A stretch of 41,725 nucleotides of DNA, from NCBI GenBank assembly GCA_020628615.1, contig JAHDEV010000007.1, positions 1 to 41,725 of the forward strand, given 5' to 3'. This stretch comes from Dokdonia sp. (GTDB lineage: Bacteria; Bacteroidota; Bacteroidia; Flavobacteriales; Flavobacteriaceae). The notes under the pieces were generated by a model. The model was not told the origin of the DNA and ran no database searches. It saw only the letters and a program-made list of their open reading frames with translations. The number at the start of each line of letters is the position of its first letter. Positions within the stretch are counted from its first letter, which is position 1. The position numbers and the translations under genes are program-made. Shown here piece by piece: positions 1 through 41,725 of the stretch.

Positions 1-1037
1 TTTGCAAAGGTATAGACCTTCTTATTTTTAAATGCATCAAACTGTCCGTAGGCAGGGTTGTCACTTAGTAATTTTGAATATGATGTATACTGTCCAGGTG
101 CAATCCAGAAGTCTGCTTGCTGCCCTTTTTCTAGCACAGATTCTATACTTAAGGCAATACTTCCCGTACCCTCGGTATCTGCCCATAGGTATGAGCCTCC
201 GGCATCTTCTAGAACTTTAGCCTGCCAGCTATCACCCTTAGGTAAATACCATACATCCTTATACATCGCGCCACTTAAAATAGTAGGGCTTGATGTTACA
301 GCTGCAAGTTGCTTTTTGGTAGCTAGATATTGATTTTTTATAGTGGTAAAAATGCTGTCTGCTTCTTTTTCTTTTCCGTACAGTGCTCCAAAAAATTTGA
401 TCCACTCTGCTTTGCCTAGCGGTTCTTTTTCTACCCAGTCGCCGTTGTATAGCACAGGGATTCCTGCACGTTGTAGGGTATTTACAGATTTGTTTTCTCC
501 TTCTACACCAAAGGTGATAACCGCATCTGGATTGAGATTTATTGCAAGTTCTGTATTAAGGGATTCGTTTTGACCTAGCTCTGTAATGAGATTGTTTTCA
601 ATACGCTTTCGCGAAAGCGGACTCGACACATAATCAAGATTAGGAAAACCTTTAAGTGTTTCTATAACACCTAGCATCTCCAGAGAGGGGATGTGCGTCG
701 TAGAAGTAACTATCACATTATTTATAGGCGTTTTTATGATGGCATCTACACCTTGATCATTAAGTAGCTCTGTAAGAGATTTACTGTTTTCTTCTTCTAT
801 AGACGCTTGCAAACCTTCTTCTGGCACAAGGGCGTAGGTAAAGGTTTTATCTGCATTTGGAAATGCTTCTGTAACCTCTAGCAATGTGTAGTTTGCATAT
901 TTTGTAATGGTAAAACCATCTGCATAGGTTACTGTTTGTGAGGCACTCATTGTGGGAGTAACGGTCGTGACTGCTGGTTCATTTTTACAAGCTGTTACCA
1001 GAAGTATAAGAAAGGCTAAAAGGTGTAAGTGCTTCAT
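1..1037 (-). CDS. BtuF-like ABC transporter periplasmic substrate-binding lipoprotein (cobalamin/iron-siderophore type), 3' end truncated by window edge
   Basis: Open minus frame starting MKHLHLLAFLILLVTACKNEP (lipobox VTAC), continuing ...DAIIKTPINNVIVTSTTHIPSLEMLGV...LNPDAVITFG...GIPVLYNGDWVEKEPLGKAEWIKFFGALYGKE..., typical of the BtuF/FhuD periplasmic-binding fold. Absent from the supplied ORF track because it has no stop inside the window. Adjacent to a cobalamin riboswitch. Confidence 0.85.
   Translation of the reverse strand, partial: MKHLHLLAFLILLVTACKNEPAVTTVTPTMSASQTVTYADGFTITKYANYTLLEVTEAFPNADKTFTYALVPEEGLQASIEEENSKSLTELLNDQGVDAIIKTPINNVIVTSTTHIPSLEMLGVIETLKGFPNLDYVSSPLSRKRIENNLITELGQNESLNTELAINLNPDAVITFGVEGENKSVNTLQRAGIPVLYNGDWVEKEPLGKAEWIKFFGALYGKEKEADSIFTTIKNQYLATKKQLAAVTSSPTILSGAMYKDVWYLPKGDSWQAKVLEDAGGSYLWADTEGTGSIALSIESVLEKGQQADFWIAPGQYTSYSKLLSDNPAYGQFDAFKNKKVYTFA
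604..619. repeat. CGCTTTCGCGAAAGCG palindrome, copy 1 (coding, LSRKR frame)
   Basis: Exact 16/16, in the btuF-like gene (SSPLSRKRIEN). Confidence 0.97.
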
Positions 1038-1140
1038 TTGCCAAAAGTAGTATTAAAATCCTCAATGCCGCAAGAGGGCTTTCTTCTTTTTGATTTACTG
1101 CTAGGTATGGAGTAATGTTATGTATATTTGCGACGAATTT

Positions 1141-1316
1141 TGGTTTTGATGCATCACACAGATGCAGAAGATTAAAAGGGAATTCCGTATAAATCGGAAG
1201 CTGTTCCCGCAACTGTAAGCTAAGCCCGTATAGGGTTTGTTACTACTACAAAGCCACTGTCATAAGGTGTTATGATGGGAAGGTGTAACAAAAGCAAGCC
1301 AGGAGACCTGCCACAA
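1141..1316 (+). ncRNA. Cobalamin (B12) riboswitch
   Basis: Canonical conserved blocks in order: AAAAGGGAAttccg, GCTGTTCCCGCAACTGTAA, AAGCCACTGTC, GGGAAGGTGT, AAGCCAGGAGACCTGCC. Lies immediately upstream of the TonB-dependent receptor ORF. Confidence 0.95.
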
Positions 1317-1363
1317 TTCTTAATTAAAATCAAGCAACTTTCGGGTAAAAAGTTGGTAGATAG

Positions 1364-3220
1364 ATGAAACATAGATTCCTTTTTATTGTTGTCGTGCTAT
1401 GTGCACTTACAACTGTCGCACAAATAGATACACTTCAAGTTTTACCTGAGGTGATCCTTAGTGATGTTAAGTTACAAAACCACAGTGTAGGTATAGCTCT
1501 TAATAAGATAAGTGATAGCACCATACAGCGCTCTCGCACGGCTCTTACCGAGGTGTTGCGAGCAAATAGCACCATATACTTTAGAGAAAATGGGCCAGGT
1601 GGCGTAGCCTCTGCCTCTTTTAGAGGGACTAACGCGGCACAGACAGCCGTCGTGTGGAACGGTATAAACATAAATAGCCAGCTTACGGGACAGTCTGATT
1701 TTAATACCTTATTGTCAAAAAATTATGATCAGCTCGATGTGAGAGCGGGCGGTGGGAGCATTATATATGGCTCTGGAGCAGTAGGTGGTAGTGTTCATCT
1801 AGGTAATGATATTAGATTTAATAAAGGACTGAACACGACAGTAACCGCAGGTTACGGAAGTTTTGATACTCAAATCGCAACGGCCAAAACGCAATTTTCA
1901 AACACTAATTTTTACATAGATGCCGGGCTAGATTATCAACGCTCTGAAAACGATTTTGACTATCTAGATACAGAAAACCAGTTTAATGAAAATGGTCAAT
2001 ACGACAATCTCAACGCTATTTTTAATATGGGTTACCTTCTTAAAAATAAGGGTAATCGCACACATTTATTAAAACTGCACCACAATACCTACGTAGGTAA
2101 TCGCAACTTTTCTGGCACACTCACAGCACCGTCTAATGATGGGTATGAAGACAGAAATACGAGGACACTTGCTGTATGGGAAAACCTGGGTACAAGATTT
2201 AATGGCAAGTTACGTGCGGCGCATATTTTTGAACAGTTTAGATATTTTGCAAATAACCAAACTGACGATAATGACCTAGGTAAATCTATACGCTATCTAG
2301 CAAACTATGAGGCAACTTATAAGCTAGATCGTAAAAAGGAACTTACCGTAATAGGTGAGGTAAACCATATTTCGGCAGCTGGTGCGTCTATCGTTGCAAC
2401 TACTAGAAATCAAGGGTCACTCGTTGCCCTTTGGAAACAGCAACTTACTCATAAATTTACCTATGAGTTTCAGGCGAGACAAGAGTTGGTAGAAGGTTTT
2501 GATAGTCCATTTCTTTTGGGAGCTGGTTTTGATTACGCTTTCGCGAAAGCGTATACACTCACATTTAACGGGTCAAAAAATTATAGAATCCCCACATTTA
2601 ACGATGCCTACTGGTCTGGGCCAGGTGCTGTAGGTAACCCAGACCTAAAACCCGAAACAAGCTTACAAGCCGAAATAGGTTTAAAAAGAACACATAAAAA
2701 TCTCACTTTAGGACTGAGAGGGTTTTATATAAACACAGATGATTTGATACAATGGCAGCCTAATCTAAGCGGTATCTGGTCACCTATAAACATTGCAGAT
2801 ACTGAGCATTATGGTATAGAGTGGGAGCTCGATTATACGGCTAGTATAGGTAATCATAAAGTTACAACCACGGCTCAATATGCCTACACAAAAGCCGAAG
2901 ATGTAGCCAGAGGTAAACAACTTATCTATGTGCCAGCTCATAAAGCGATACTCAGTATCGCGCATAACTATGGCAGGCTGAGTAGTTATGTGCAAACCAG
3001 CTTTGTAGATCGTGTTTTTACAACTACAGATAATACGGCGCAGGTAGACGGCTATGCGATTGCAAACCTTGGGACGAGCTATGACATCTTACACAAGCAA
3101 GGGACTAAGCTTCAAGTAATGGCGAGAGTCAATAACTTATTTAATACAAACTACCAGACGGTTGCTTTTAGACCTAACCCTGGAAGAAACTTTTTATTAC
3201 AAACAACAATTACTTTTTAA
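1364..3220 (+). CDS. btuB: TonB-dependent outer membrane receptor, BtuB-like (vitamin B12)
   Basis: 618 aa with signal peptide, plug domain (FRENGPGGVASASFRGTNAAQTAVVWNGININSQLTGQSDFN), beta-barrel and C-terminal TITF; downstream of B12 riboswitch. Confidence 0.9.
   Translation: MKHRFLFIVVVLCALTTVAQIDTLQVLPEVILSDVKLQNHSVGIALNKISDSTIQRSRTALTEVLRANSTIYFRENGPGGVASASFRGTNAAQTAVVWNGININSQLTGQSDFNTLLSKNYDQLDVRAGGGSIIYGSGAVGGSVHLGNDIRFNKGLNTTVTAGYGSFDTQIATAKTQFSNTNFYIDAGLDYQRSENDFDYLDTENQFNENGQYDNLNAIFNMGYLLKNKGNRTHLLKLHHNTYVGNRNFSGTLTAPSNDGYEDRNTRTLAVWENLGTRFNGKLRAAHIFEQFRYFANNQTDDNDLGKSIRYLANYEATYKLDRKKELTVIGEVNHISAAGASIVATTRNQGSLVALWKQQLTHKFTYEFQARQELVEGFDSPFLLGAGFDYAFAKAYTLTFNGSKNYRIPTFNDAYWSGPGAVGNPDLKPETSLQAEIGLKRTHKNLTLGLRGFYINTDDLIQWQPNLSGIWSPINIADTEHYGIEWELDYTASIGNHKVTTTAQYAYTKAEDVARGKQLIYVPAHKAILSIAHNYGRLSSYVQTSFVDRVFTTTDNTAQVDGYAIANLGTSYDILHKQGTKLQVMARVNNLFNTNYQTVAFRPNPGRNFLLQTTITF
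2536..2551. repeat. Palindrome copy 2 (coding, AFAKA frame)
   Basis: Exact 16/16 in btuB-like gene (DYAFAKAYTL); palindrome extends to 20 bp (TACGC...GCGTA). Confidence 0.97.
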
Positions 3221-3228
3221 ACACACTT

Positions 3229-4299: not shown

Positions 4300-4318
4300 G
4301 TTTATTTACTATATAATT

Positions 4319-4353
4319 AAAAAGGGGTGACATAATCTGTTACCCCTTTTTTT
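4319..4353. terminator. Bidirectional intrinsic terminator
   Basis: AAAAGGGGTGACA-taatc-TGTTACCCCTTTTTTT hairpin between convergent genes. Confidence 0.85.
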
Positions 4354-4356
4354 GTA

Positions 4357-5897: not shown

Positions 5898-6548
5898 TTA
5901 ATTAACAAGCTTTGCTAACAGCGGCAAATCGTGATCTAGTTGCTCAAACGCTGTTTTTGGTGTTCTATAGCCTAGAAAGGGGGCAAAGTAAATATAAGAT
6001 TCAAGCTTGTGGCTATAAGCAAGTTTATTATGTGTAGACAGTTTTTTATCTAGATCTAGACTTATATCCATCCACTCCGAAGAAAAAAACTGAGCGCCTT
6101 GTCTATTAAAAAGTAAGATAAGCTTAGGAGCAATATAGGTGATGACCTCTTTAGTAATCTCAAGTTGATCTCTGAGAAACTGTTTACCCACCTCGTCGTT
6201 AAGAAAGTGTGCTATTTGTTTTTGCTCCGTATGTCGTTGATAGAATAAATCGCAATAAGTAATTCCTTGAGATTGAAAAGCTGATAGTAAGTTGTAAAAT
6301 TTTTTAAAGTAGCGATCATTCTGCAATTTGCTATAATCATAGCTACACATATCGTCACTTATAAAATCTGTGCGTAACGATGGATTTATACCCATAACCA
6401 GCACGTTTGCCGTAGGATCTATCTTAGAGAATACAAAGCCATCATGTATAATGTCTTGCTGTTCTTGGGTATGAAGAAGCTTTGTGTAGGTGGTAAATAG
6501 GGTTTCAATTTTCGCTTTAAGCGAAAGCAAAAATGCATCCCTACTCAT
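5898..6548 (-). CDS. Uracil-DNA glycosylase-superfamily-like protein
   Basis: 216 aa with VLVMGINPSLRTDF near the N-terminus and LILLFNRQGAQFF mid-protein, resembling UDG-superfamily motifs. Overlaps the DUF1343 gene by 8 nt. Assignment by motif impression only. Confidence 0.5.
   Translation of the reverse strand: MSRDAFLLSLKAKIETLFTTYTKLLHTQEQQDIIHDGFVFSKIDPTANVLVMGINPSLRTDFISDDMCSYDYSKLQNDRYFKKFYNLLSAFQSQGITYCDLFYQRHTEQKQIAHFLNDEVGKQFLRDQLEITKEVITYIAPKLILLFNRQGAQFFSSEWMDISLDLDKKLSTHNKLAYSHKLESYIYFAPFLGYRTPKTAFEQLDHDLPLLAKLVN
6510..6526. repeat. Degenerate relative of the palindrome (TTTCGCTttaAGCGAAA)
   Basis: CGCTTTAAGCGAAAGC versus consensus CGCTTTCGCGAAAGCG; inverted arms of 7 bp, 3-nt loop. 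Confidence 0.45.
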
Positions 6549-7803
6549 ACATTAGATATTTTGAGCGTATCTTTTTAAATCGTTCTATACCTGGCAACCA
6601 TTTTCTTTTAATCTCCTTAAAAGTATAGCCCGCCTCAATGTCTTGCTGTAATTGTGTTGAACCCGCGTGTAGTGTAAAGCTAGCCGTTTTAAAGAAAGTA
6701 TCCTTATTACTACTAGCAGCATAGGCTTCTATGAGCCATTCAAGATTTACCGTGTTCATATAGGCCTCACCACGTAGGTCTTTACCGTTACAGGTTACAC
6801 CCTTATGTTTTGGTGATTTTGAACCAAAATTAGGTTGTGGCGTGTATAAGAATGAAAAGTACTCTTTAGGAAAATCTGGTGCGCCAAAGATTTGAAACTG
6901 CATTTCTGTCCCGCGTCCCGCGTTTACCGTAGTCCCTTCAAAAAAGCCTAAGCTAGGATATAAATTGATACTCTTATCATTAGGCAAGTTAGGCGAGGGT
7001 CTTGTAGGGAGTGCATATTTTTTCTGGTATGACCAGTTTTTAAGAGGTATCACCGTAAGATCTACTGTGATCTTATCTTTGAGCCAGCCTTCTCCATTTA
7101 CCATTCTTGCATATTCGCCTATCGTCATACCATACACAAGTGGTATCTCGTGCATACCTAAAAAGCTACTGTGTTCTTTTTCTAGTGTAGGGCCGTCTAT
7201 GTAATGAGCATTAGGATTAGGTCTGTCTAGCACTATGACGGAAATCCCACTTTCTGCAGCGGCTTCCATAACATAGGTGAGGGTAGATATGTAGGTGTAA
7301 AAACGCACGCCCACATCTTGTATGTCAAAGAGTAAGACATCAAGCCCTTCTAGCTGTTGTGCCGTGGGTTTTTTATTTTTTCCGTAAAGGGAGATGATGT
7401 TGAGACCCGTTTTTGGGTCTTTGCCATCCTTTACTTTTTCGCCGGCATCTACATTTCCTCTAAAACCGTGCTCTGGCGAGAAGACCTTCTTTATCGTAAC
7501 TCCCATACTGAGTAAGGAGTCTACCAGATGAGTGCTTTGCGCTTCTGTATGCGATGTCTCGGTAAAGATGAGTCCGCTTTTATTTGTAACTACTCCTACG
7601 TTTTTATTTGCTAGTAATGGGAGGTATACATCTGTTCTATTTGCACCCACAGTAATGCTAGAATCTATGACTACTAGGTTACTTGTCGTGGGTTGTTTGG
7701 ATTCCGCTTTCGCGAAAGCGGTCTTATCTCCACCTGTATTTGCACAAGAAATTAAGAGTGTGAGCGTTAAAAAAAGGGTATTTTTGAATAAAATGAGACG
7801 CAT
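6541..7803 (-). CDS. namZ: DUF1343 / NamZ-type exo-beta-N-acetylmuramidase lipoprotein
   Basis: Lipobox LLISCAN; NVGVVTNKSGL, FSPEHGFRGNVDAGEKV, GLDVLLFDIQDVGVRFYTYISTLTYVMEAA, VLDRPNPN characteristic of DUF1343. Confidence 0.85.
   Translation of the reverse strand: MRLILFKNTLFLTLTLLISCANTGGDKTAFAKAESKQPTTSNLVVIDSSITVGANRTDVYLPLLANKNVGVVTNKSGLIFTETSHTEAQSTHLVDSLLSMGVTIKKVFSPEHGFRGNVDAGEKVKDGKDPKTGLNIISLYGKNKKPTAQQLEGLDVLLFDIQDVGVRFYTYISTLTYVMEAAAESGISVIVLDRPNPNAHYIDGPTLEKEHSSFLGMHEIPLVYGMTIGEYARMVNGEGWLKDKITVDLTVIPLKNWSYQKKYALPTRPSPNLPNDKSINLYPSLGFFEGTTVNAGRGTEMQFQIFGAPDFPKEYFSFLYTPQPNFGSKSPKHKGVTCNGKDLRGEAYMNTVNLEWLIEAYAASSNKDTFFKTASFTLHAGSTQLQQDIEAGYTFKEIKRKWLPGIERFKKIRSKYLMYE
7705..7720. 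repeat. Palindrome copy 3 (coding, AFAKA frame)
   Basis: Exact 16/16 in namZ (DKTAFAKAESK); extends to CCGC...GCGG. Confidence 0.97.
7779..7786 (+). promoter_or_regulatory. Possible Bacteroidetes -7 box (TATTTTTG) for the downstream permease gene
   Basis: Matches TAnnTTTG 17 nt before the TTG start at 7804, inside the namZ coding sequence; no convincing -33 TTG at standard spacing. Confidence 0.3.
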
Positions 7804-10708: not shown

Positions 10709-11248
10709 TTAAAATGCAATAAGCGAGTATCCATTCATTTGTGACTGGCTTAAAACGGTCATTGCAGAGAGGGCTACATCTACTATTTCCAATCTTCGTG
10801 CCGAAGTAATGTTGCGTGATCCCGCCGTTTGCCCGCAGAGTATAAGTTCTACTCCTGCATCGCTTAGTGCCTCTAGAAGTGCAATATTGGGATTATCTAC
10901 CCCATATTTTTCTTTATAAAGTTTATTTGTAAGTACGCCATATGCCGCCTTACCGTGTATTGCTGCACGTATGTGCATATTCTCCTTAGGGACACCTGCT
11001 TTATCGTGCATATTTAAAAAGCGAGCCATCGTCTCTATGTATGGATTTCTTACGCTAGGGTCTTCTGGGGCTTTTACCACATCAAAAACAATATAAAATT
11101 GTGCTTCAGTATCGGTTTTAAAATCTGGCTCTGGTACGGCAAAAGTTTTTCCAAAATCTTTGATGAGGTTACCAGGTTGTGATGAGGGTTGTTGTGAGTA
11201 CGCTTTCGCGAAAGCGAAACATAAAGCAATAAGAAGCAAATTTTTCAT
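10709..11248 (-). CDS. Secreted DsrE-family-like protein
   Basis: Start refined from the ORF-track 11320 to the internal ATG at 11248, giving signal peptide MKNLLLIALCFAFAKAYSQ. MHIRAAIHGKAAYGVL...LLEALSDAGVELILCGQT is typical of DsrE-like proteins. Confidence 0.7.
   Translation of the reverse strand: MKNLLLIALCFAFAKAYSQQPSSQPGNLIKDFGKTFAVPEPDFKTDTEAQFYIVFDVVKAPEDPSVRNPYIETMARFLNMHDKAGVPKENMHIRAAIHGKAAYGVLTNKLYKEKYGVDNPNIALLEALSDAGVELILCGQTAGSRNITSARRLEIVDVALSAMTVLSQSQMNGYSLIAF
11201..11216. repeat. Palindrome copy 4 (coding, AFAKA frame, signal peptide)
   Basis: Exact 16/16 in the DsrE-like gene (LCFAFAKAYSQQ). Confidence 0.97.
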
Positions 11249-11349
11249 AAAAGTAAAAGTAGTTTTAAGTAATGTAGTGCGCATTATGTAATGTGCATAA
11301 AGAAAAAGAAAACCAGTCAAAAAACCTTATCTGGAGGTAATAATATCAT

Positions 11350-12723: not shown

Positions 12724-12739
12724 CGCTTTCGCGAAAGCG
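12724..12739. repeat. Palindrome copy 5 (intergenic)
   Basis: Exact 16/16; 78 nt upstream of the DUF2254 start. Confidence 0.97.
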
Positions 12740-14760: not shown

Positions 14761-15228
14761 TTATTTATGGTTAATTATTTTTTCCATTTTTATGTTTGCG
14801 CGCTCGTATGACGCATTTTCTTCGACGGGAATCTCAATAAAGCCCCATTTTTTATAAATATGAATAGCGTTTTCTAAAATGGTGTTTGAGTAGAGTATGA
14901 GTTTTGATAGGTTTTCCGCTTTCGCGAAAGCGAGACAATGCTCCATTAATTTTTGACCTATTCCCAGACCTCTAGCTTGTGGAGATACTGCCATTTTTGT
15001 AAGTTCTAATACACCGTTTATTTGTGTGGGCATAAGCGCTACAGTGCCTACAATCTCATCATTGTGCTGGGCAAAAAATATGTATCCTCCTTTATTTATA
15101 ATGTAAGTTTCTGGCTTACTTAATACTTCTAAGTCATAAGGTTCTACATAAAAATAGGTCTCTAGCCATTCTATATTAAGATGCTTGAAGGCATCTTTAT
15201 GTTTTGTGTTATAGGGTATAATATTCAC
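14761..15228 (-). CDS. GNAT-family N-acetyltransferase
   Basis: ELTKMAVSPQARGLGIGQKLMEHCLAFAKAENLSKLILYSN...AIHIYKKWGF. Confidence 0.9.
   Translation of the reverse strand: MNIIPYNTKHKDAFKHLNIEWLETYFYVEPYDLEVLSKPETYIINKGGYIFFAQHNDEIVGTVALMPTQINGVLELTKMAVSPQARGLGIGQKLMEHCLAFAKAENLSKLILYSNTILENAIHIYKKWGFIEIPVEENASYERANIKMEKIINHK
14917..14932. repeat. Palindrome copy 6 (coding, AFAKA frame)
   Basis: Exact 16/16 in the GNAT gene (HCLAFAKAENL). Confidence 0.97.
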
Positions 15229-18182: not shown

Positions 18183-19358
18183 ATGTCAAAGTCAAACCAG
18201 GGTCTCAATACCATTTGTACGCACACGGGAGAAGTAAAAGACGAGCAGTTTCAAGGGGCTGTATCTCCCATCTATATGTCATCTTCATATGCCTTTATGG
18301 ATGTAGATGTAAAGCGCTACCCACGTTATTTTAATACACCTAACCAAGAAGGACTGAGCAAGAAAATTGCAGCTTTAGAAAAAACGGAAGCTGGGATGAT
18401 TTTTGGCAGTGGTATGGCCGCAGTGAGCACAACCTTACTTGCCTTTTTGAGAAGTGGCGATCACATTGTATTACAAGAAACTTTATACGGAGGGACCTAT
18501 AATCTTGTGGTAGAGGAGTTTGAAAAGTACGGTATAGATTATACGTTTACAGAAGATCTTAGTGAGGCCGCTTTCGCGAAAGCGATAACCCCACAAACCA
18601 AAGTTATCTACATAGAGACACCGTCTAACCCGCTTATGAAAGTAACAGATATGGAAATGGTCTCTGCACTAGCCAAAAAGCACGGCATTGTAACGATGAT
18701 AGATAACACCTTTGCATCACCTGTAAATCAAAATCCAAAAGATTTTGGGATAGATATAATGATACACTCGGCTACAAAATATATGGGTGGTCATAGCGAT
18801 ATCTGTGCAGGAGCCGTTGCAGCAAGTCAAGAGCATATAGACCGTATCTGGAACCTAGGTAAAAATCTAGGAGGAAGTTTAAGTGATCTTATGGTCTGGA
18901 TGCTTGAGCGTAGTATCAAGACAATGGCGCTGCGCGTAAAAGCTCAGAATAGAAATGCAAAGAAACTTGCTAAATGGCTCGATAAAAAGGAGGAAATAGA
19001 TAAGGTGTATTATCCAGGTCTCAAGTCGCATCCTGACTATGCTCTTGCAAAAAAGCAAATGAGCGGTTTTGGCGGTATGATGTCCTTCGAGTTAGCACCA
19101 CACATTGATGCAGAGGAGTTTCAAAAAGCGCTTAAACTCATAAAACCTTCTATGAGTCTTGCAGGTGTAGAGAGTACAATGCTTTGCCCAGCCCAAACCT
19201 CTCACTTTTTACTAGGAGAAGAAGAGCGTGCAAAACAAGGTATTGCAGATGGCTTGATACGCTTTTCTGTAGGTATAGAAGAGAAAAAAGATCTTATGGC
19301 AGATATTGACCAAGCGCTTGAAGTTGTACTTAAAAAAGCAACAATAGTAGCAGACTAG
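18183..19358 (+). CDS. Cys/Met metabolism PLP-dependent enzyme (cystathionine gamma-lyase/synthase or methionine gamma-lyase type)
   Basis: AGMIFGSGMAAVSTTLLAFLRSGDHIVLQETLYGGTYNLV, YIETPSNPLMKVTD, DIMIHSATKYMGGHSDICAGAV. Confidence 0.92.
   Translation: MSKSNQGLNTICTHTGEVKDEQFQGAVSPIYMSSSYAFMDVDVKRYPRYFNTPNQEGLSKKIAALEKTEAGMIFGSGMAAVSTTLLAFLRSGDHIVLQETLYGGTYNLVVEEFEKYGIDYTFTEDLSEAAFAKAITPQTKVIYIETPSNPLMKVTDMEMVSALAKKHGIVTMIDNTFASPVNQNPKDFGIDIMIHSATKYMGGHSDICAGAVAASQEHIDRIWNLGKNLGGSLSDLMVWMLERSIKTMALRVKAQNRNAKKLAKWLDKKEEIDKVYYPGLKSHPDYALAKKQMSGFGGMMSFELAPHIDAEEFQKALKLIKPSMSLAGVESTMLCPAQTSHFLLGEEERAKQGIADGLIRFSVGIEEKKDLMADIDQALEVVLKKATIVAD
18569..18584. repeat. Palindrome copy 7 (coding, AFAKA frame)
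   Basis: Exact 16/16 in the PLP-enzyme gene (SEAAFAKAITPQ). Confidence 0.97.
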
Positions 19359-21530: not shown

Positions 21531-21546
21531 CGCTTTCGCGAAAGCG
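21531..21546. repeat. Palindrome copy 8 (intergenic)
   Basis: Exact 16/16 (GTACGC...GCGTAA), 77 nt upstream of the M28 start and just past the dnaN terminator. Confidence 0.97.
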
Positions 21547-22859: not shown

Positions 22860-25289
22860 CTAGCGGGCGTAACGACGCTTTCTTATTGCCGTATATATGA
22901 TGCCAAAAATAAGTAGTATCACAAGCGGAAGCCCAATGGTCAAGACTTGCCACGTGGTGATCTCTTTTGAAACCTTCTGGGTGTCTATAAATGGGAGGGC
23001 AATTTCTTTACTTCTTATGTTAATAAGACCATTATCATCGAGCAGGTAATTAACCGTGTTAAGCAAAAACTCTTTGTTGCCATAGCTGGTTCTCGTGTAA
23101 TAGTCAAAGCCTAATTCTAGTGGTTGCCCGCGGCTATCTAGTTCGTTTGCTATAATGTCACCGTCTGAGATGAGTATAAGTTTTGAGGGGTTTGTTGCGC
23201 TTTCGCGAAAGCGTTCTTTATCACTTCCATCTGGCAACACACGATTTGTAAATGCCGAAGAAAATGCACCTTCTACTAGCACTGCTAAAGGCTGTTGTCC
23301 GGCTTGAAAATCTGCCTCCTGAGGTTCTATATCTACTTGTGCAAGTGCAATTTCTCTTGGAGTTGCTTCTACCTTTGTATAGATGCTAGATTGTAATAAT
23401 ACTGTTTTTGAGAGTTCATTACTAGACTCAAGAAGTTCTATAGGGTTTGCGTAGTTAAAGCGCACCGGTTTTTCAATATTAGTATTTATAGGGTGGGTGT
23501 TAAGGCTAGGTACCTGTGGTCTGTATAACCACGGTAGTTGTATGTACTGCGACTCACTTCCTTCTCCAGATGCTACACTTAGCGGGGAAGAGTAGAGGTC
23601 TACCACTAGTGAGGGATTAATGCGTACACCATACTTAAAGAGTTGATCGTCCAGATTGAGATCTCTAGGAAATGCAACTGTTTTACCTGCATCATTACGC
23701 AGACTGTCATCTTCTATTGCCACAGCATCGAGCATCCAGAGGCTATTGCCGCCGTTTATAATATATTGATCTATCACATATTTTTGTTGCTCTGTAAATG
23801 CCTTAGTAGGTTTTGCGATAACTACGAGGTCAAAGGTGTTTTGTAAGGCTTTGAGTGCTTTTTCTGGGTCTTGGTTTGCCACCTCCATTGGGAAAGGTGC
23901 AATATTATAAGTATCACCCAGCTTACGGAACATATCTGCAATTTTTGCATCTGGTAACTCACCATTATCTCGTAGTACTGCTATGCGCTTAGTCTTTGCA
24001 TTTAAAGAGATGTTAAGCCCCTCTGCAAAGGCATATTCAAGATTTTGAATAGACGCATAAACTAGTTGTTCTGGTGACGATCCTACCACATTTTTTACCA
24101 AAGAAACAGGAACGGCTTTACCATTAAAATTAATAGTAGCCCACGGGAAAATAGTTTGGGTAGTCTCTTTACCATCTTGTTTTACTTTGAGCGGGATAGT
24201 GGTCATTCCAAACTCGTTAAACTGTCCTGCTACTTGAGCGGTTGTTTCTCCTGGCTCTACAGGGTTTGAAAACTCAAAGTAAATATTAGGATTGTGAGCC
24301 TGCATTTCTTCAAGTAGGTAGCGCGTCTCGTTCTGAAGCTTTTTAAATTCTGCAGGAAAGTCTCCTTCAAGAAAAACATCTATGATAAGTGGACTATTAA
24401 TTTGATCTAATAATTCCTTTGTAGGCGGGCTTATGGTATACCTATTATCTTGAGTTAAGTCATAACGTTTATGTGCAAGTGAACCTGCATAATTTATAAA
24501 TAGTACCCCTATAAACAAGAGCATCGGTTGCGCTATGTTAGAGATTTTTTTCACGTAAGTGTACTGGTTTTTTTGCAATCTCCATATCGTGAGTATGATA
24601 AAAAATGCAGTTACACTTATAAAATAGATTAGGTCTCTCGTGTCTATGACTCCTCTACTTATACTTTCATAATGTGATTTAATACTTAAGCTTGATAAAA
24701 AGGTTGTAGTACCCTCTAGGCTACTGTAGGCTGCGATACCTTCAATTCCAAAATAGAGAAAAAAGCAAAGCGCTACTGATGCAATAAAGGCAACAATTTG
24801 ATTACTAGTACAGGCAGATATAAATATTCCTAATGCCGTATAAATACTGGCAAGTAGTATAAGTCCAGCATATGACCCTATGGTTACACCTACGTCCAGA
24901 TTACCTACGGGATTACCTAGCATATATATAGCGAGCACATACATTAACGTAGGTATAATAGCAATAAGTATGAGGCTGTAAGCACCTAGATATTTACCTA
25001 GCGTAAGTTGTAATGTAGTAATGGGTTTTGTGAGTAATAATTCTAAGGTTCCTGTTTTTTTTTCTTCACTAAAACTGCGCATTGTTACCGCAGGAATAAG
25101 GAAAGTAAACATCCACGGGGCAATAAGAAAAAATGGAGCAAGGTCTGCAAAGCCTGAGTTAGGAATATTAAATTCTCCTTCAAAAACCCATAAAAATAAT
25201 CCTGTGACCACTAGAAACAACCCTACGACTAAGTAGCCTATAGGTGATGAGAAAAATGTGGTGATTTCCTTTTTTAATATTGCGTACAA
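22860..25289 (-). CDS. Fused GldF-GldG gliding-motility ABC transporter protein (ABC-2 permease + GldG substrate-binding-like domain)
   Basis: N-terminal ABC-2 permease MYAILKKEITTFFSSPIGYLVVGLFLVVTGLFLWVFEGEFNI...; in-frame continuation through YTYVKKISNIAQPMLLFIGVLFINYAGSLAHKRYDLTQDNRYTISPPTKELLDQINSPLIIDVFLEGDFPAEFKKL (GldG N-terminus-like) to a C-terminal TM helix. Confidence 0.88.
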   Translation of the reverse strand: MYAILKKEITTFFSSPIGYLVVGLFLVVTGLFLWVFEGEFNIPNSGFADLAPFFLIAPWMFTFLIPAVTMRSFSEEKKTGTLELLLTKPITTLQLTLGKYLGAYSLILIAIIPTLMYVLAIYMLGNPVGNLDVGVTIGSYAGLILLASIYTALGIFISACTSNQIVAFIASVALCFFLYFGIEGIAAYSSLEGTTTFLSSLSIKSHYESISRGVIDTRDLIYFISVTAFFIILTIWRLQKNQYTYVKKISNIAQPMLLFIGVLFINYAGSLAHKRYDLTQDNRYTISPPTKELLDQINSPLIIDVFLEGDFPAEFKKLQNETRYLLEEMQAHNPNIYFEFSNPVEPGETTAQVAGQFNEFGMTTIPLKVKQDGKETTQTIFPWATINFNGKAVPVSLVKNVVGSSPEQLVYASIQNLEYAFAEGLNISLNAKTKRIAVLRDNGELPDAKIADMFRKLGDTYNIAPFPMEVANQDPEKALKALQNTFDLVVIAKPTKAFTEQQKYVIDQYIINGGNSLWMLDAVAIEDDSLRNDAGKTVAFPRDLNLDDQLFKYGVRINPSLVVDLYSSPLSVASGEGSESQYIQLPWLYRPQVPSLNTHPINTNIEKPVRFNYANPIELLESSNELSKTVLLQSSIYTKVEATPREIALAQVDIEPQEADFQAGQQPLAVLVEGAFSSAFTNRVLPDGSDKERFRESATNPSKLILISDGDIIANELDSRGQPLELGFDYYTRTSYGNKEFLLNTVNYLLDDNGLINIRSKEIALPFIDTQKVSKEITTWQVLTIGLPLVILLIFGIIYTAIRKRRYAR
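23198..23213. repeat. Palindrome copy 9 (coding, RFRES frame)
   Basis: Exact 16/16 in the gldFG fusion (KERFRESATNPS). Confidence 0.97.
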
Positions 25290-27729: not shown

Positions 27730-27745
27730 CGCTTTCGCGAAAGCG
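27730..27745. repeat. Palindrome copy 10 (intergenic)
   Basis: Exact 16/16 immediately after a terminator T-run, 94 nt upstream of the SDR start. Confidence 0.97.
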
Positions 27746-29453: not shown

Positions 29454-30866
29454 TTATTGATTTAAATATGCAAGAAGCTCATTCTCAAATTTTGAGCTGT
29501 GTATGTTTGCGTGGCTATTAAGAATCACCCCTTTTCTATCTAGCACTATTGTCTTATTAATATCATTGAGTACTAGTTGCTTTCTTCCCAAGTCTGGTTT
29601 TGCAAGTTGGTATTCCATAAGTGAGTTGTAATTTTTATTATCTAGGTGACGTATCCACTTATCTTGTTCTTTATTTACATTAATAGCTATGAAGTTAAAC
29701 TCGGGATATTTTCGTTGTAAATCTTTAGCTTTTTGGTGCGAGTTGTTCATATGTGACTTTCTCGAGTAAGACCAAAAGTATAGTACAGTAGGCTTTGTTA
29801 TACGACTTGACAGTGTGCTCATTGCAAGGTTAGTATCTACGATAAGAACATCTGGTATCGTGTTTCCAGCCTGCATACTCTCATTGTTAGCATATAATGC
29901 ATCTATATTATCAATGGTTTCTTGAGATGAAGAAACGGCCTTAATCTCATCAAACAAGGTTGCAACCTCTTGAGAGTTGTTGCTGTTTGCTATAAAAATA
30001 CGCGCCATCTGGTTGAGAAGTCTTTCTTTGAGCGGCTCATTTGTAATAATACTATCTATAACAGCAATCTGGTGGTGATTGTGCACGTAAGACATACGGT
30101 CATACTTAGACTGGTCACCATATCTTAAAAAGCTCAGATGGTTTATGTATGATCCCAGATATCTTCTAAAACCGTATAACTCATCTAGATTAGGATTGTT
30201 TATATCTACGCTTTCGCGAAAGCGGTAAAAGTCACCCGGTAATGTTTTAATGAAGTTAAGTTTGTCTTTTCCATAATGGGCAAATGGGTAAAGCTCTTTG
30301 CGCTGGTAGTTATCTAGTTTTGAAACTGCTCTGGCGATGTCTATAAAATCATCAGAGTATGAAGCTTCTGGGTGATTTAAGAAACTACTAAGTTCCTCTT
30401 GATGAATTATGGACATTGAGTCCAAGGTCTTCTGAAAATTTTCAGGATTTTTTTGATATTTTCTTTTAATATTTTTGTTTTCAGATTCCCAGTGTAAGTA
30501 CATATCTATAAGAAATGTACTTTTATCAGAACCGTAGCCGGAGAAGCTTAAAGACTCATCAAACTCCTTAGTATTAACGCGCAGTAGAATGCTGTCTCCT
30601 TCTTCTATATGAACTATTTGATGCTCTCCGTGCTCAAAGCGGTAAAGACCACTTTCAAAATTTTCCAGTTTATGTAAAAATCTATTACGTCTATCTAGAG
30701 GTATGCTGTCTGTAACTTTCTCTCCCTTACGTAGTAAGACGTAGCTCTGTACAGGATTTATTATTTCTCCACCTATATAAGTTCCTTCTGCCTTGTTCTT
30801 ATCTTCTGAGATACAACTGCTTGTAAATACTACAAGTAACGAGAGAAGAGCGATTTGATATTTCAT
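29454..30866 (-). CDS. TlpA-like thioredoxin-fold lipoprotein with degenerate active site (SRKS in place of CxxC)
   Basis: TSSC lipobox; DUF4369-like N-terminal part; KPTVLYFWSYSRKSHMNNSHQKAKDLQRKYPEFNFIAINVNKEQDKW, the TlpA fold region. Confidence 0.8.
   Translation of the reverse strand: MKYQIALLSLLVVFTSSCISEDKNKAEGTYIGGEIINPVQSYVLLRKGEKVTDSIPLDRRNRFLHKLENFESGLYRFEHGEHQIVHIEEGDSILLRVNTKEFDESLSFSGYGSDKSTFLIDMYLHWESENKNIKRKYQKNPENFQKTLDSMSIIHQEELSSFLNHPEASYSDDFIDIARAVSKLDNYQRKELYPFAHYGKDKLNFIKTLPGDFYRFRESVDINNPNLDELYGFRRYLGSYINHLSFLRYGDQSKYDRMSYVHNHHQIAVIDSIITNEPLKERLLNQMARIFIANSNNSQEVATLFDEIKAVSSSQETIDNIDALYANNESMQAGNTIPDVLIVDTNLAMSTLSSRITKPTVLYFWSYSRKSHMNNSHQKAKDLQRKYPEFNFIAINVNKEQDKWIRHLDNKNYNSLMEYQLAKPDLGRKQLVLNDINKTIVLDRKGVILNSHANIHSSKFENELLAYLNQ
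30209..30224. repeat. Palindrome copy 11 (coding, RFRES frame)
   Basis: Exact 16/16 in the TlpA-like gene (DFYRFRESVDIN). Confidence 0.97.
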
Positions 30867-33185: not shown

Positions 33186-33908
33186 TTATCTTGTTTTATC
33201 GTAAGTGCTATTCCATATCGCTTTGTTGAAATTTTTACCTAGTGCAAAGGCATAAAATAACACAATCGCTCCGATGGACTTAAACATAAAGAAAAAGACC
33301 ATAACATCTTGACTAAAATCTTGATTCTTTGTAAAAAGACCGTCTGGTATAAGCATAGTAGCGACTAGACTTATCAAAAGTGTAGTTACAATGAGGTTTT
33401 CAAAAGATTTAAATGACCAAGCCCACTGCTTTCTAAAGGGATTAAGATCATTTCCCCATTTATGTATAAGGTAGTAATACCCATTACCCATAGGGGCAAA
33501 AAGTAAAGGGTCGTCTGCTTTTTCTAGCACAAACATTTTTGACGGCGCTATGATTTTAAAACCATCTAGCTCTGTATTGTGCGTGTTTTCAAGATATTTA
33601 ATATTGTCAAGTGCTTGCTGTGGGTATTTACCTTTAAAATATTTTGTGTCTAGAAAACGAAGTCTGTAATCTATACAAATCTTTTCTATTTGTTTAATGT
33701 GGAATATATTTTCGGCATCCAGTAGGTCTATGTTAAACTCATTGTAACCTGAGCCAGAAGGACTATTAAGGGTTTTTAAGATTCCGCTTTCGCGAAAGCG
33801 GTCTTGCGTAAAAATAGCTTCTACTTGAGCCAGAATATCTTGCTCTTGCTCACTCTTGCTGCGCTCACGTAATAATTTATCGTGAATGTTTGTTCTGGTT
33901 AATAGCAT
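33186..33908 (-). CDS. Hypothetical membrane protein
   Basis: 240 aa ORF with two C-terminal TM segments, ending 5 nt upstream of the DUF2007-like ORF start. Confidence 0.7.
   Translation of the reverse strand: MLLTRTNIHDKLLRERSKSEQEQDILAQVEAIFTQDRFRESGILKTLNSPSGSGYNEFNIDLLDAENIFHIKQIEKICIDYRLRFLDTKYFKGKYPQQALDNIKYLENTHNTELDGFKIIAPSKMFVLEKADDPLLFAPMGNGYYYLIHKWGNDLNPFRKQWAWSFKSFENLIVTTLLISLVATMLIPDGLFTKNQDFSQDVMVFFFMFKSIGAIVLFYAFALGKNFNKAIWNSTYDKTR
33785..33800. repeat. Palindrome copy 12 (coding, RFRES frame)
   Basis: Exact 16/16 in the hypothetical membrane-protein gene (TQDRFRESGILK). Confidence 0.97.
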
Positions 33909-34100: not shown

Positions 34101-34120
34101 AAAGTAATTTATTAAAGTGA

Positions 34121-36547: not shown

Positions 36548-36633
36548 AAAAATGGAGCTTTTTGAAGTAGGCAAATATAGGATAAGTAAGCAAGTAGGCA
36601 AAGGAGAAGCGAGAGTATCTGTGTAGTTTTTTA

Positions 36634-36649
36634 CGCTTTCGCGAAAGCG
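36634..36649. repeat. Palindrome copy 13 (intergenic)
   Basis: Exact 16/16, 86 nt upstream of the refined pheT start. Confidence 0.97.
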
Positions 36650-36751
36650 TATATATCCCCATTTCATTACTTATAACCGTATATTTTGCACTTGTATAAT
36701 AAAGTGATTGTCACATCTTTTTTAAAGTTGCGGTTACTATAACTTTGTTTT

Positions 36752-38002
36752 ATGAATAAAATATTGATCATTTTAGTTTTGGCTAGTTTGTTTTCTTGTA
36801 AAAAAGACGTGCATTCGCCAGTAAATAAAGGTATTAAAGAAGGTGTGTGGCGTGCTACACTAGCAGTTCAAGATAATGAGGAGTTGCCTTTTGTCTTTGA
36901 GTCTTTTGAAGACGGGACACTTGCTATACATAATGCCGAAGAGCGCATTCTGGTAGATGAGATAACGATTACGGGTGATAGTGTACGTATTCAAACTCCA
37001 GTTTTTGAGGGATATTTTTCTGGACGCTTTCGCGAAAGCGGAAACCTAATAACGGGTAATTTTATAAAGCCCAGTCTTGATCGCATAGTCCCTTTTAAGA
37101 TGGTGTATGGAGACTCAGTACGTTTTATTACTGAGTATACTCAAGAAGATGATAAGCCGCCGTATGTGAATGTCACAGGTAGTTGGGAAACAGTTTTTAG
37201 CCCAGAGAGTGAAGAAGATCGTTACATTGCAAAGGGTATGTTTAAGCGTGCGGGAGCTGTTGTAACAGGTACTTTTAGAACAACCACCGGAGATTATAGG
37301 TATCTTGAGGGTAGGATTAATGGTGATGAGATGCGTCTCTCTACCTTTGACGGGGCACACGCTTTTCTATTTGTGGCTACCGTAACAGATAGTACGATGC
37401 AAGGTGATTTTTATAGCGGTAATCATTGGAAAGAGCCTTTTGTAGCAAAACGTAACGACACTTATGAGTTGCCAGATGCAAAGAATCTTACATATCTCAA
37501 AGAAGGCTATGATCGTGTTGACTTTGCCTTTCCAGATGAAAGCGGGAATATCATTTCTCTGCAAGATGAGCGGTTTATAAATAAAGTCGTGCTTGTGCAG
37601 ATATTGGGCTCTTGGTGTCCTAACTGTATAGAGGAGTCTAAGTTTTATAGGGATTATCTAAAAACGAATCCATCAAAAGATCTTGCAGTCATAGGTCTGG
37701 CTTATGAATATGCAAAAACAGAAGAGGCTGCGCGCAAGAGTATAAAACGCCTTAAAGATAGGTTAGAGCTTCCTTATCCGGTGCTCTTGGCACAGTATGG
37801 GCAAGGAGCAGACAAGGCTGCTGCTGCAAAAACATTGCCTATGCTTAATCACGTTCTTTCATACCCAACCACAATTTATATAGATAAAAAAGGAGCTGTG
37901 AGGCGCATACATACTGGGTATAACGGTAAAGCGACAGGGGGGAAGTATCTTGAGTTTGAAAAAGATTTTAAGGATTTTGTAACGGGGTTGCTTTTAGAGT
38001 AA
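36752..38002 (+). CDS. TlpA-like thioredoxin-family lipoprotein
   Basis: LFSCKKD lipobox; VVLVQILGSWCPNCIEESKFYRDYLKTNP. Confidence 0.9.
   Translation: MNKILIILVLASLFSCKKDVHSPVNKGIKEGVWRATLAVQDNEELPFVFESFEDGTLAIHNAEERILVDEITITGDSVRIQTPVFEGYFSGRFRESGNLITGNFIKPSLDRIVPFKMVYGDSVRFITEYTQEDDKPPYVNVTGSWETVFSPESEEDRYIAKGMFKRAGAVVTGTFRTTTGDYRYLEGRINGDEMRLSTFDGAHAFLFVATVTDSTMQGDFYSGNHWKEPFVAKRNDTYELPDAKNLTYLKEGYDRVDFAFPDESGNIISLQDERFINKVVLVQILGSWCPNCIEESKFYRDYLKTNPSKDLAVIGLAYEYAKTEEAARKSIKRLKDRLELPYPVLLAQYGQGADKAAAAKTLPMLNHVLSYPTTIYIDKKGAVRRIHTGYNGKATGGKYLEFEKDFKDFVTGLLLE
37025..37040. repeat. Palindrome copy 14 (coding, RFRES frame)
   Basis: Exact 16/16 in the TlpA-like gene (FSGRFRESGNLI). Confidence 0.97.
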
Positions 38003-40105
38003 TCAAGAGATATAACTCCAGATATTCTTAAACTTCATCATCTGGGCATACATAAAACGTATGATTTGGTTTTCTTCTTTTTGAAACTTAGGGTCGTCTT
38101 TTACCAGTTGCCAGGCGTAGCTTCTGGCTACCTTTAGAATGTCATTGTCACGTATAATATCTGCTATTTTAAGGTTAAGAGCGCCACTTTGCTGTGTTCC
38201 TGTAATGTCTCCTGGGCCTCGTAGTTTGAGATCTACCTCTGCTATTTCAAAGCCATCATTAGTACGTGTCATTGTCTCTAGGCGCACTTTACTATCGCTA
38301 GAGAGTTTGTGACTGGTCATAAGGATACAATAGCTCTGCTCTGCACCGCGGCCTACACGACCACGCAGCTGGTGTAACTGGCTTAACCCAAAACGCTCTG
38401 CACTCTCAATAATCATAACTGATGCATTAGGAACATTTACACCCACTTCTATTACGGTTGTGGCGACCATAATTTGAGTTTCACCTTTTATAAAGCGATT
38501 CATTTCAATCTCTTTATCGTCTGGTTTCATCTTTCCGTGCACGATAGAAATTTGATATTCTGGCATCGGAAATTCACGAGAAATACTCTCGTAGCCATCC
38601 ATCAAATCTTTGTAATCCATCGCCTCAGATTCTTGTATTAATGGGTACACAATATAGACCTGTCTTCCTAGGGCAATTTCGTCCCTTATAAACTTAAAAA
38701 CTTTGAGTCTATTTGCGTCATATCTATGTACCGTTTTTATGGCTTTTCTGCCTGGTGGTAACTCATCAATTACACTCACATCTAGATCACCATAAACGGT
38801 CATCGCCAGGGTGCGGGGGATAGGGGTGGCGGTCATCACAAGTACGTGTGGTGGGTACTCATTTTTGTGCCATAACTTGCTGCGTTGCTTTACCCCAAAA
38901 CGGTGTTGCTCATCTATAACTGCGAGGCCAAGATTCTTAAATTTTACCTTGTCTTCTAGTAGCGCGTGTGTGCCTATAAGGATGTCTAACTCACCATTTT
39001 CGAGCTGCTCGTGTATAATTTTACGTTCTGAAGCTTTGGTTGAACCTTGAAGTAATGAAATACTGGTATTCAGTTCTTTACATAGTTCCAATAATCCTTG
39101 ATAGTGTTGCACTGCCAGTATGGCAGTAGGCGCCATTAAACAAGCCTGAAAACCGTTGTCAAGTGCCATTAACATTGACATAAGCGCTACTATGGTCTTC
39201 CCAGAACCTACATCTCCTTGTAAAAGCCTGTTCATTTGTGCATTTGTACCTAGGTCGTGACGTATTTCTTTAAGAACACGTTTTTGTGCACCGGTCAACT
39301 CAAAGGGTAAATGGTCGTTATAAAACTCTGTAAAAATGGGGCCAACTTTCTCAAAAGGATACCCTTTTATTTTGGTCTTATGGTTTACATTTTTAAAGGC
39401 AAGTTGCAACTGGATATAAAAAAATTCTTCAAATTTTAATCGGTATTGAGCACGTGCAAGATGCTCTTGAGATTGCGGAAAATGAACGTTAAAAAGTGCC
39501 TCTCTTTTTGGCATTAATTTGAGCTCTGTAACAAGGGGTTTTGAGAGGCTCTCAAAGAGGTGATTTTTCGCCTCCATAAAGAGGGTTTGCATCACTCCGT
39601 TTACCACCTTATTTGTGATGCCACGATTAGATAATTTTTCGGTAGATGGGTACACAGGTTGCATAGCAGATCTTATGCTTTTTTCGTGCTCAGAAAGTAG
39701 TTCCATCTCTGGATGTGGCATCGAGAATTTACCGTTGTAATAATTGCATTTTCCAAAAATTACATAAGGCGTATTCATTTTAATAGCCTCCTTAATCCAT
39801 TTATGACCTCTAAACCATACTAGCTCCATTTGCCCACCATCATCTCTAAAGGTTGCCACAAGCCTGCGACCTTTACCCTCTACCATTTTCATACTGGTAA
39901 ACTTTCCTATAATTTGCACCTCTGCATTACTGCGCTCAAGCTCGCTTATTTTATAATAGCGCGTTTTATCTATATACCTGTGCGGGAAAAGATGCATCAA
40001 GTCCTGAAAGGTGTGTATACCCAGCTCAGAGCGCAACAAGTCTGCTCTGTTAGGTCCTACGCCTTTAAGATAGTCTATGGGAGTTTGTAAAAATGTGGGA
40101 TTCAT
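38003..40105 (-). CDS. recG: ATP-dependent DNA helicase RecG
   Basis: RLLQGDVGSGKTIVALMSML, VIDEQHRFGVKQR, VMTATPIPRTLAMTVYGDLDVSVIDELPPGRK, RGRVGRG, RGPGDITGTQQSG. Confidence 0.97.
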   Translation of the reverse strand: MNPTFLQTPIDYLKGVGPNRADLLRSELGIHTFQDLMHLFPHRYIDKTRYYKISELERSNAEVQIIGKFTSMKMVEGKGRRLVATFRDDGGQMELVWFRGHKWIKEAIKMNTPYVIFGKCNYYNGKFSMPHPEMELLSEHEKSIRSAMQPVYPSTEKLSNRGITNKVVNGVMQTLFMEAKNHLFESLSKPLVTELKLMPKREALFNVHFPQSQEHLARAQYRLKFEEFFYIQLQLAFKNVNHKTKIKGYPFEKVGPIFTEFYNDHLPFELTGAQKRVLKEIRHDLGTNAQMNRLLQGDVGSGKTIVALMSMLMALDNGFQACLMAPTAILAVQHYQGLLELCKELNTSISLLQGSTKASERKIIHEQLENGELDILIGTHALLEDKVKFKNLGLAVIDEQHRFGVKQRSKLWHKNEYPPHVLVMTATPIPRTLAMTVYGDLDVSVIDELPPGRKAIKTVHRYDANRLKVFKFIRDEIALGRQVYIVYPLIQESEAMDYKDLMDGYESISREFPMPEYQISIVHGKMKPDDKEIEMNRFIKGETQIMVATTVIEVGVNVPNASVMIIESAERFGLSQLHQLRGRVGRGAEQSYCILMTSHKLSSDSKVRLETMTRTNDGFEIAEVDLKLRGPGDITGTQQSGALNLKIADIIRDNDILKVARSYAWQLVKDDPKFQKEENQIIRFMYAQMMKFKNIWSYIS

Positions 40106-40187
40106 TAAAAGTAAAAATAAGCCTTTAACTCAAATTTTTGAATGCCTGTATAAAAGATACTGGCTCAAAAGTTGTTATTTTGAGTAT

Positions 40188-41725
40188 ATGAAATACCTGT
40201 TGTTCTTTATTGTTGCTGTTTCCGCTTTCGCGAAAGCGTATACCCAAGAAATATCTGCTCAAACCAAAACCATAGATTTTAAGGAGGTTACCGCTTCCTT
40301 ATCACTTGATTTTGATACCAAATCTGTTCTAGGAAAAGTAACTACAACCTTTACCGCTTTACAAGATGTAAATCAAGTTGTGATGGATGGAAAGAAAATG
40401 CAACTCGTAGATAAAACACCCACATTTGCCATAAGCGCAACAGATACTACTATAATTTTTGACGGAAGTTTTAAAGCTGGTGCTACCTACAAAGCAGTTT
40501 TTGACTACTCGGTGCAGCCTTCTCAAGCCGCTTATTTTGTAAATAATAATGGGAGTGAGCAGTTCTGGACGCAAGGTCAAGGCAAGTACACCTCACACTG
40601 GTTGCCTAGTATAGATGATATGAATGACAAAATCATATTTGATCTCAAAGTGACGGGACACAATAGACATACAGTCATTGCAAATGGGGTAGCTGCAAAA
40701 ACGTTAAAAGATTATAACATTTTAATTTCAGAATTTGATATGCAAAAGCCCATAGCAAGCTATCTCGTGGCGCTTGTGGTGGGAAATTATGATGTAAAAA
40801 CAGCTACGGCCGCATCTGGTGTACCTTTAGAATATTACTATTATCCAGAAGACTCGTTGCAGGTAGAGGCTACTTATAGATACTCCAAAGAGGTTTTTGA
40901 CTTTTTAGAACGTAAGATAGGTGTGCCATTTCCTTTTAAGGTATATAAACAAGTACCCGTAAAAGATTTCTTGTATGCTGGTATGGAGAATGCGAGTTGC
41001 ACCATCTTTTCTGACGATTTTATGGTAGATGCGATAGGCTTTACAGATCGTAATTATGTAAACGTAAATGCACACGAGCTTGCACACCAGTGGTTTGGAG
41101 ATCTAGTTACAGAGACTAAGAGTGAGCACCACTGGCTACAAGAGGGATTTGCCACGTACTACGCACTTCTCGCCGAACGCGAGATCTTTGGTGATGACTA
41201 TTTTTATTTTAAACTCTTTGAAACTGCAGAGCAGTTACGAGCTTTAAGCGATCAAGGCAAGGGGCAAAAGCTTGTTGCTTCTGGAGGAAGTAGTCTTACC
41301 TATTATCAAAAAGGTGCTTGGGCAATACACATATTACGAGAGCGAGTAGGGGCAAACACCTTTGATCTCGCTGTGCAGAATTACCTCAAAAAGTATGCAT
41401 ATAAAAATGTAACTACCGAAGATTTTATGACAGAGGTGGAGGCGCTAGCTACCGTAGATCTCACAGACTTTAAGAAAAACTGGCTATACCAGTCTGCTTT
41501 TCAAGCAGAAGATGCCTTACAGTCGCTTAAAAAGAGCGAATTTATGCAACAGTACTTTAGATTACAGTCGGGTAGAGAAGCTCCGTTATCAAATAAGTTT
41601 ACACAACTTATGGATGCCATAGCCTCAGGTAACGACTACCTAGGGCAAGAAGCGGTGTATCAAGCGGCTCAAGAATCTATTAATGCGACACTGCCAGTTT
41701 TTAAACAAGCTATAAGTTCTGATAA
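40188..41725 (+). CDS. M1-family aminopeptidase, 3' truncated by window edge
   Basis: Open frame from the ATG at 40188: MKYLLFFIVAVSAFAKAYTQEISAQTK...; GMENASCTIF; NVNAHELAHQWFGDLVTETKSEHHWLQEGFATYYA. Not listed in the ORF track because its stop is outside the window. Confidence 0.93.
   Translation, partial: MKYLLFFIVAVSAFAKAYTQEISAQTKTIDFKEVTASLSLDFDTKSVLGKVTTTFTALQDVNQVVMDGKKMQLVDKTPTFAISATDTTIIFDGSFKAGATYKAVFDYSVQPSQAAYFVNNNGSEQFWTQGQGKYTSHWLPSIDDMNDKIIFDLKVTGHNRHTVIANGVAAKTLKDYNILISEFDMQKPIASYLVALVVGNYDVKTATAASGVPLEYYYYPEDSLQVEATYRYSKEVFDFLERKIGVPFPFKVYKQVPVKDFLYAGMENASCTIFSDDFMVDAIGFTDRNYVNVNAHELAHQWFGDLVTETKSEHHWLQEGFATYYALLAEREIFGDDYFYFKLFETAEQLRALSDQGKGQKLVASGGSSLTYYQKGAWAIHILRERVGANTFDLAVQNYLKKYAYKNVTTEDFMTEVEALATVDLTDFKKNWLYQSAFQAEDALQSLKKSEFMQQYFRLQSGREAPLSNKFTQLMDAIASGNDYLGQEAVYQAAQESINATLPVFKQAISSD
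40223..40238. repeat. Palindrome copy 15 (coding, AFAKA frame, signal peptide)
   Basis: Exact 16/16 in the M1 aminopeptidase gene (VAVSAFAKAYTQE). Confidence 0.97.

Follow-up and report, generated by a model that had tools for sequence, protein, structure and literature searches.

In the 41,725 nucleotides of Dokdonia sp. DNA analysed here (hereafter the window), a perfect 16-bp palindrome, CGCTTTCGCGAAAGCG, recurs from one end to the other. The question raised by this locus is how far the repetition extends, how the copies arise and are kept, and which process reads them. In the open-access literature searched, neither the 16-mer nor its 10-mer core is described, and no account was found of palindromes in Dokdonia or of matching methyltransferase motifs in Nonlabens.

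Copy number, core and flanks of the palindrome

Each of the 15 copies reported in a preliminary description of the window was verified as an exact 16/16 match (Table 1). Dinucleotide shuffles gave an expectation of 0.03, in line with the claim that such a 16-mer should occur there far less than once. No match with one to three mismatches was present in the window. In the host genome (G000, 2.72 Mb, 77% complete), 590 exact copies were counted and 805 with up to two mismatches, when the reversed control pattern gave 0 and 3, respectively. The palindrome is thus neither at chance level elsewhere nor confined to a single mobile region, and its initial portrayal as a dispersed, genome-wide HIP-like palindrome, distinct from CRISPR and REP/BIME, is supported. 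Genome-wide, about 27% of the copies within two mismatches are imperfect, the absence of degenerate forms being local to the window. The window is also denser than the host genome (1 copy per 2.8 kb versus about 1 per 4.6 kb), and the earlier extrapolation to more than 1000 copies per genome was too high: a complete 3.3-Mb relative carries about 700.

Table 1. Palindrome copies in the window and one example of the extended signal; genes are those called within this analysis and do not come from a published annotation.
Feature	Position	Strand	Context
Copy 1	604..619	.	no complete ORF at site (contig edge)
Copy 2	2536..2551	.	within ORF 1364-3220(+), AFAKA frame
Copy 3	7705..7720	.	within ORF 6541-7803(-), <100 bp from its start
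Copy 4	11201..11216	.	within ORF 10709-11320(-), near start
Copy 5	12724..12739	.	intergenic
Copy 6	14917..14932	.	within ORF 14761-15228(-)
Copy 7	18569..18584	.	within ORF 18183-19358(+), AFAKA frame
Copy 8	21531..21546	.	intergenic
Copy 9	23198..23213	.	within ORF 22860-25289(-)
Copy 10	27730..27745	.	intergenic
Copy 11	30209..30224	.	within ORF 29454-30866(-)
Copy 12	33785..33800	.	within ORF 33186-33908(-), near start
Copy 13	36634..36649	.	within ORF 34121-36667(-), at start
Copy 14	37025..37040	.	within ORF 36752-38002(+)
Copy 15	40223..40238	.	outside called genes, after ORF 38003-40105(-)
Extended-signal example	18549..18604	.	palindrome plus 20 bp of G/T-rich DNA 5' on each strand, about 56 bp

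The closed relative G001 was read over about 1.2 Mb, most other genomes being counted only. In this 1.2 Mb, the 12-mer CTTTCGCGAAAG was found 326 times and the 14-mer GCTTTCGCGAAAGC 321 times, and no further 12-mer palindrome occurred more than six times. Single-mismatch forms were over-represented and mostly altered at the outermost C/G; at this outer CpG, the commonest loss was C to T. Since the changes in imperfect copies were almost confined to these outermost positions, the invariant core is the 14-mer GCTTTCGCGAAAGC. The motif is short and over-represented genome-wide by orders of magnitude, as are the DNA-uptake signals of Pasteurellaceae (USS) and Neisseriaceae (DUS).

When averaged over copies, the 20 bp located 5' of the palindrome on both strands were G/T-rich and C-poor, most strongly at positions -2 to -12. 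For purely intergenic copies, C amounted to 5% at positions -10 to -1, against a background of 17%. A 3-bp ripple in the flank signal fits the codon third positions of the Ala-Phe-Ala-Lys-Ala (AFAKA) frame. The flanks have a composition in common rather than a fixed sequence, and their arms showed no covariation beyond composition, except at a single palindrome-adjacent base in Dokdonia. Because the arms do not covary, an extended hairpin or cruciform was ruled out, and the unit is better described as a symmetric double-stranded recognition sequence of about 55 bp. Judging from the sequence, a candidate protein probably reads these 55 bp or so symmetrically, as double-stranded DNA.

Spacing, placement and turnover of the copies

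The fairly regular spacing noticed earlier in the window was confirmed by simulation (gap CV 0.43 versus 0.94 simulated, P 0.0005). Two blocks of 400 kb from a relative each contained only 2 gaps shorter than 1 kb, when 20-22 were expected with the same genic/intergenic mix; the gap CV was 0.65-0.73 against about 1.07 expected, and long gaps were also too few. Similarly, G016 contained 6 gaps below 1 kb versus 34 expected.

Exact copies were found preferentially between genes. In G001 and G016, 47-66% of them were intergenic, compared with 11-13% of the DNA, which corresponds to a 4-5 times enrichment; in the window, the share was 5 of 15 (33%). Among genic copies, 45 of 70 were in the AFAKA frame, and 24 were located in the first 150 bp of genes, where signal peptides lie, versus 10.4 expected. 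Intergenic copies were distributed over the four gap orientations (++, --, -+ and +-) roughly by gap length, with 15 copies in convergent gaps for 9 expected. As tandem, divergent and convergent gaps are used roughly according to their amount, operators and terminators are disfavoured. No bias towards the ori or ter region was detected in 60 sampled 20-kb stretches, and the density was similar round the chromosome.

A copy-free 38 kb in G001 covers two giant adhesin-like genes. Together with the placement of the other copies, this shows a depletion in constrained coding sequence of the kind described for USS and DUS. This gap was considered as an acquired island, an explanation that was dropped in view of its gene content, namely these two giant repetitive genes. 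At G001:C1:285378-320307, an OmpA-like/PorP-like pair is tandemly duplicated, each beside one of the giant repetitive adhesin-like genes (4431 and 5060 codons). Variable segments, in which a USS- or DUS-type signal would be scarce if they were recently acquired, gave a mixed picture and were not clearly poor in copies: a 24-kb segment of G016 that is absent from G001 carried 11, and several small segments of G001 carried none. In two Dokdonia genomes (G001:C1:104329 and G000:C18:13691), a copy precedes the ComEC-domain stretch by 75 bp, falling within comEC or immediately next to it.

Orthologous sites were compared between G016 and G001, which are about 96% identical. Of 76 sites, 68 were exact in both and 8 differed by one or two substitutions, the changes being split evenly, four and four, between the two directions; indels were absent, and an empty site was never seen. 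Motif divergence was 0.4% of positions versus 5-8% in the surroundings, likewise in intergenic DNA, and 94% of the motif copies were identical between close relatives, against about 52% of neighbouring 16-mers. In the window, 14 of the 15 copies were kept in G001 (96% identical); the sole altered one is copy 2, in which TCGC became TAGC, with two more changes just upstream. Across the genus, among genomes that could be aligned at 70-96% identity, the exact 14-mer core was found in 13 of 14 genomes for copy 7, in 13 of 17 for copy 9 and in 6 of 8 for copy 8. Since the AFAKA peptide at copy 7 can be encoded in 256 ways, conservation there operates at the DNA level; the G017 version of this site is GCTTTTGCAAAAGC, the amino acids being unchanged. 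Stringent conservation, with degenerate forms arising from point mutation, is again what is seen for USS and DUS.

Carrier genera, probably transferred clusters and phages

The palindrome was present in all 18 of the Dokdonia genomes, with 138-711 exact copies in each. The genus assignment follows from G016, whose sequence agreed with NZ_CANMDS010000001.1 ("uncultured Dokdonia sp.") at every point sampled along an 8-kb stretch. In a survey of the Flavobacteriaceae (400 genomes, 237 genera), only two other genera, g11 and g193, had hundreds; g11 contained 448-579 copies and the remaining surveyed genera 0-13. As named exact matches belonged overwhelmingly to Nonlabens and Dokdonia, g11 is probably Nonlabens. 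The g193 genome G209, which is GC-richer (46%), shared the 14-mer core but was less strict at the outer bases (153 exact copies, 541 within two mismatches) and possibly represents a dialect or a decaying set. Outside the Flavobacteriaceae, exact matches were apparently single copies, at about chance level in 257 Gb.

No other dialect was found in 20 further genera, for each of which 20 kb were inspected. A repeated near-palindrome, ACTTTGSCAAAGT, was observed at G040:C1:1000001-1020000, some of its copies occurring in pairs spaced by 37 bp with common flanks. These CTTTGSCAAAG repeats were rejected as a dialect, as such pairs with shared flanks look REP/BIME-like.

In few-copy genera, the copies were often clustered at the same spacing (2446, 933 and 3460 bp). 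Clusters with this conserved spacing were found in the unrelated flavobacteria G096, G105, G120, G355, G119 and G163, and the one that was read is a metal-resistance locus encoding a CzcA/CusA-like RND pump, P-type ATPases and a multicopper oxidase. Because the spacing is common to different genera, the simplest explanation is transfer from a carrier genus, which these clusters suggest as their origin.

Phage DNA was also considered. P12024S and P12024L, two lytic phages of a Nonlabens host, contained no copy in 35 kb each, when 7-8 were expected. A Mu-like temperate phage contig (IMGVR_UViG_3300040781_000495) carried about six copies in 37 kb, near the host density. In this small sample, the contrast fits a situation in which resident DNA gains the signal and strictly lytic DNA does not.

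Candidate functions of the palindrome

Published accounts of USS and DUS describe copies that are evenly distributed, scarce in coding sequence and gained by point mutation, together with molecular drive and a contribution of the flanks, and biased uptake followed by recombination (molecular drive) is sufficient to produce DNA-uptake signals (PMC7811141, PMC1939737, PMC2397512). The Dokdonia palindrome resembles them in its hundreds of evenly spaced copies, its preference for non-coding or tolerant coding DNA, its point-mutation turnover, its excess of single-mismatch forms, its strict conservation and its weaker, contributing flanks. Because of this resemblance, an uptake-type reading fits best. 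By analogy, we tentatively propose, with a confidence somewhat short of even, that the palindrome may mark "self" DNA throughout the genome, in the way of DNA-uptake sequences.

We infer a reading protein, and uptake or exchange as the step at which the site would be read. A dimeric or otherwise symmetric protein would recognize, in double-stranded form, the palindrome of 14-16 bp together with 20 bp of G/T-biased DNA to either side of it, and fragments bearing a site would be preferred for uptake, or for recombination, during natural transformation. New copies would appear by point mutation at tolerant places, such as intergenic DNA and AFAKA stretches like those of signal peptides, and would be kept or restored as DNA is exchanged within the group. 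A fragment would need no more than one site, which would lead to even spacing. In Riemerella columbina, a competent species that its authors place in the same family, the organism's own DNA is preferred (PMC7965970).

Several observations count against the uptake reading. The density of the palindrome (about 1 per 4.6 kb) is 4-5 times below that of known USS and DUS. In Neisseria, many new DUS come via recombination and not point mutation (PMC2397512), a pattern from which that of the Dokdonia palindrome differs. The competence proteins ComEC (inner membrane) and DprA were found in all carriers tested, in favour of uptake, but both were equally present in non-carriers. In a ComEC tree, the carriers formed two sets, one joining Dokdonia and G209 and the other made up of g11, with weak deep support, a pattern compatible with a single origin or with more than one. 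The type-IV-pilus secretin (PF00263) was absent from 6 of the 9 carriers tested and present in the other 3, compared with 3 of 19 other genomes, so that the distribution of the motif does not follow that of a type-IV-pilus uptake machine. Since most carriers are devoid of this secretin, uptake would call for a novel kind of receptor in the outer membrane. Unlike the known USS and DUS, which are oriented 9-12-mers and not palindromes, the Dokdonia motif is a perfect palindrome with flanks on both sides, hosted by Bacteroidota.

The main rival to the uptake reading is a binding site for a chromosome-organising or nucleoid-occlusion protein acting in the manner of ParB, Noc, MatP or SlmA, with about 700 even sites throughout the chromosome, an explanation that we hold possible but on the unlikely side. 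The sites of such proteins are 12-16-bp palindromes bound by dimers, and those of Noc and ParB (parS) have a TTTC...GAAA layout, which the Dokdonia palindrome shares at a similar length. A long perfect palindrome with symmetric flanks is what such dimers prefer; furthermore, the regular spacing and conserved position agree with this role, and restriction to a few genera would be expected for a single reading protein. However, known sites of this type number tens, not hundreds, per genome and occupy defined regions, whereas the palindrome occurs everywhere and lacks the ori/ter bias. The carriers tested possess a single ParB-family protein, as do most non-carriers, and no Noc-like paralogue. 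No close match to canonical parS was found in 1.2 Mb of G001.

It is less probable, and in our view rather doubtful, that the palindrome acts within the cell as a recombination or repair signal, similar to Chi or to a strand-exchange hotspot, and is kept for repair or RecA-dependent exchange. G/T-rich DNA favours RecA pairing, and the G/T-rich flanks, the conservation and the even occurrence of one site per few kb would suit such a function. Known Chi sites, however, are short, non-palindromic and strand-oriented, whereas the present motif is symmetric, comprises 14-16 bp plus flanks and has no orientation.

A mutational origin, in which methylation of TCGCGA or CGCG would generate a HIP1-like palindrome through methylation-dependent mismatch repair or mutational bias, appears very improbable. 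HIP1 (GCGATCGC, cyanobacteria) is likewise a highly iterated perfect palindrome found genome-wide in genic and intergenic DNA and offers an analogy through its resident methyltransferases (PMC4390886), and the outer CpG of the Dokdonia motif is most often lost as C to T. The Dokdonia unit is nevertheless twice as long, of another sequence and from another phylum, and it is evenly spaced and prefers intergenic DNA. A purely mutational process would give random spacing and would have no need of 20-bp flanks. Two methyltransferase families were covered: C5-methyltransferases (PF00145) were not found in G008, G016, G017, G260 and G209, nor were N6/N4 methyltransferases (PF01555) in the first four, although these four genomes have 230-711 copies. 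The methylation role initially considered is weakened by these dense carriers, and restriction avoidance is without support.

A transcription terminator, an operator or an RNA hairpin would be self-complementary and enriched between genes, as the palindrome is, but such a role is most unlikely, given the use of all gap types roughly by length, the one to two thirds of copies that are intragenic, the lack of a T-run and the non-covarying flank arms, which indicate no selection for a longer stem. Finally, spreading by insertion of a mobile mini-palindrome (MITE- or REP-like) is scarcely credible: the copies are many, nearly identical, short and often intergenic, as in REP/BIME, but each of the 8 sites that differ between close relatives does so by point substitution within an alignment, the flanks are alike in composition only, and the single fixed sequence is evenly spaced, without clustering, paired units or insertion. 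Thus, among the four roles listed in the preliminary description, the uptake or recombination signal and the nucleoid site were rightly included, and self-propagation is opposed by the gains and losses observed.

In the literature examined, uptake signals are described for Pasteurellaceae and Neisseriaceae, and the question of what genome-wide palindromes such as HIP1 do has yet to be settled. The marine-flavobacterial palindrome is an independent case with a long, exact sequence, which makes the questions of uptake and palindrome function directly testable. The chances are about even that it represents either the first palindromic, and first Bacteroidota, DNA-uptake signal, with a new secretin-independent surface or periplasmic receptor, or the site of the first nucleoid protein to cover an entire bacterial chromosome through some 700 evenly spaced, specific sites. 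If it serves to organise the chromosome, no specific site known to us comes close to it in density. The motif probably also marks DNA that has moved from carrier genera, such as the metal-resistance clusters found elsewhere among the flavobacteria. An uptake role would imply a novel DNA receptor in the outer membrane, and the motif could then be used to help transform model marine flavobacteria.
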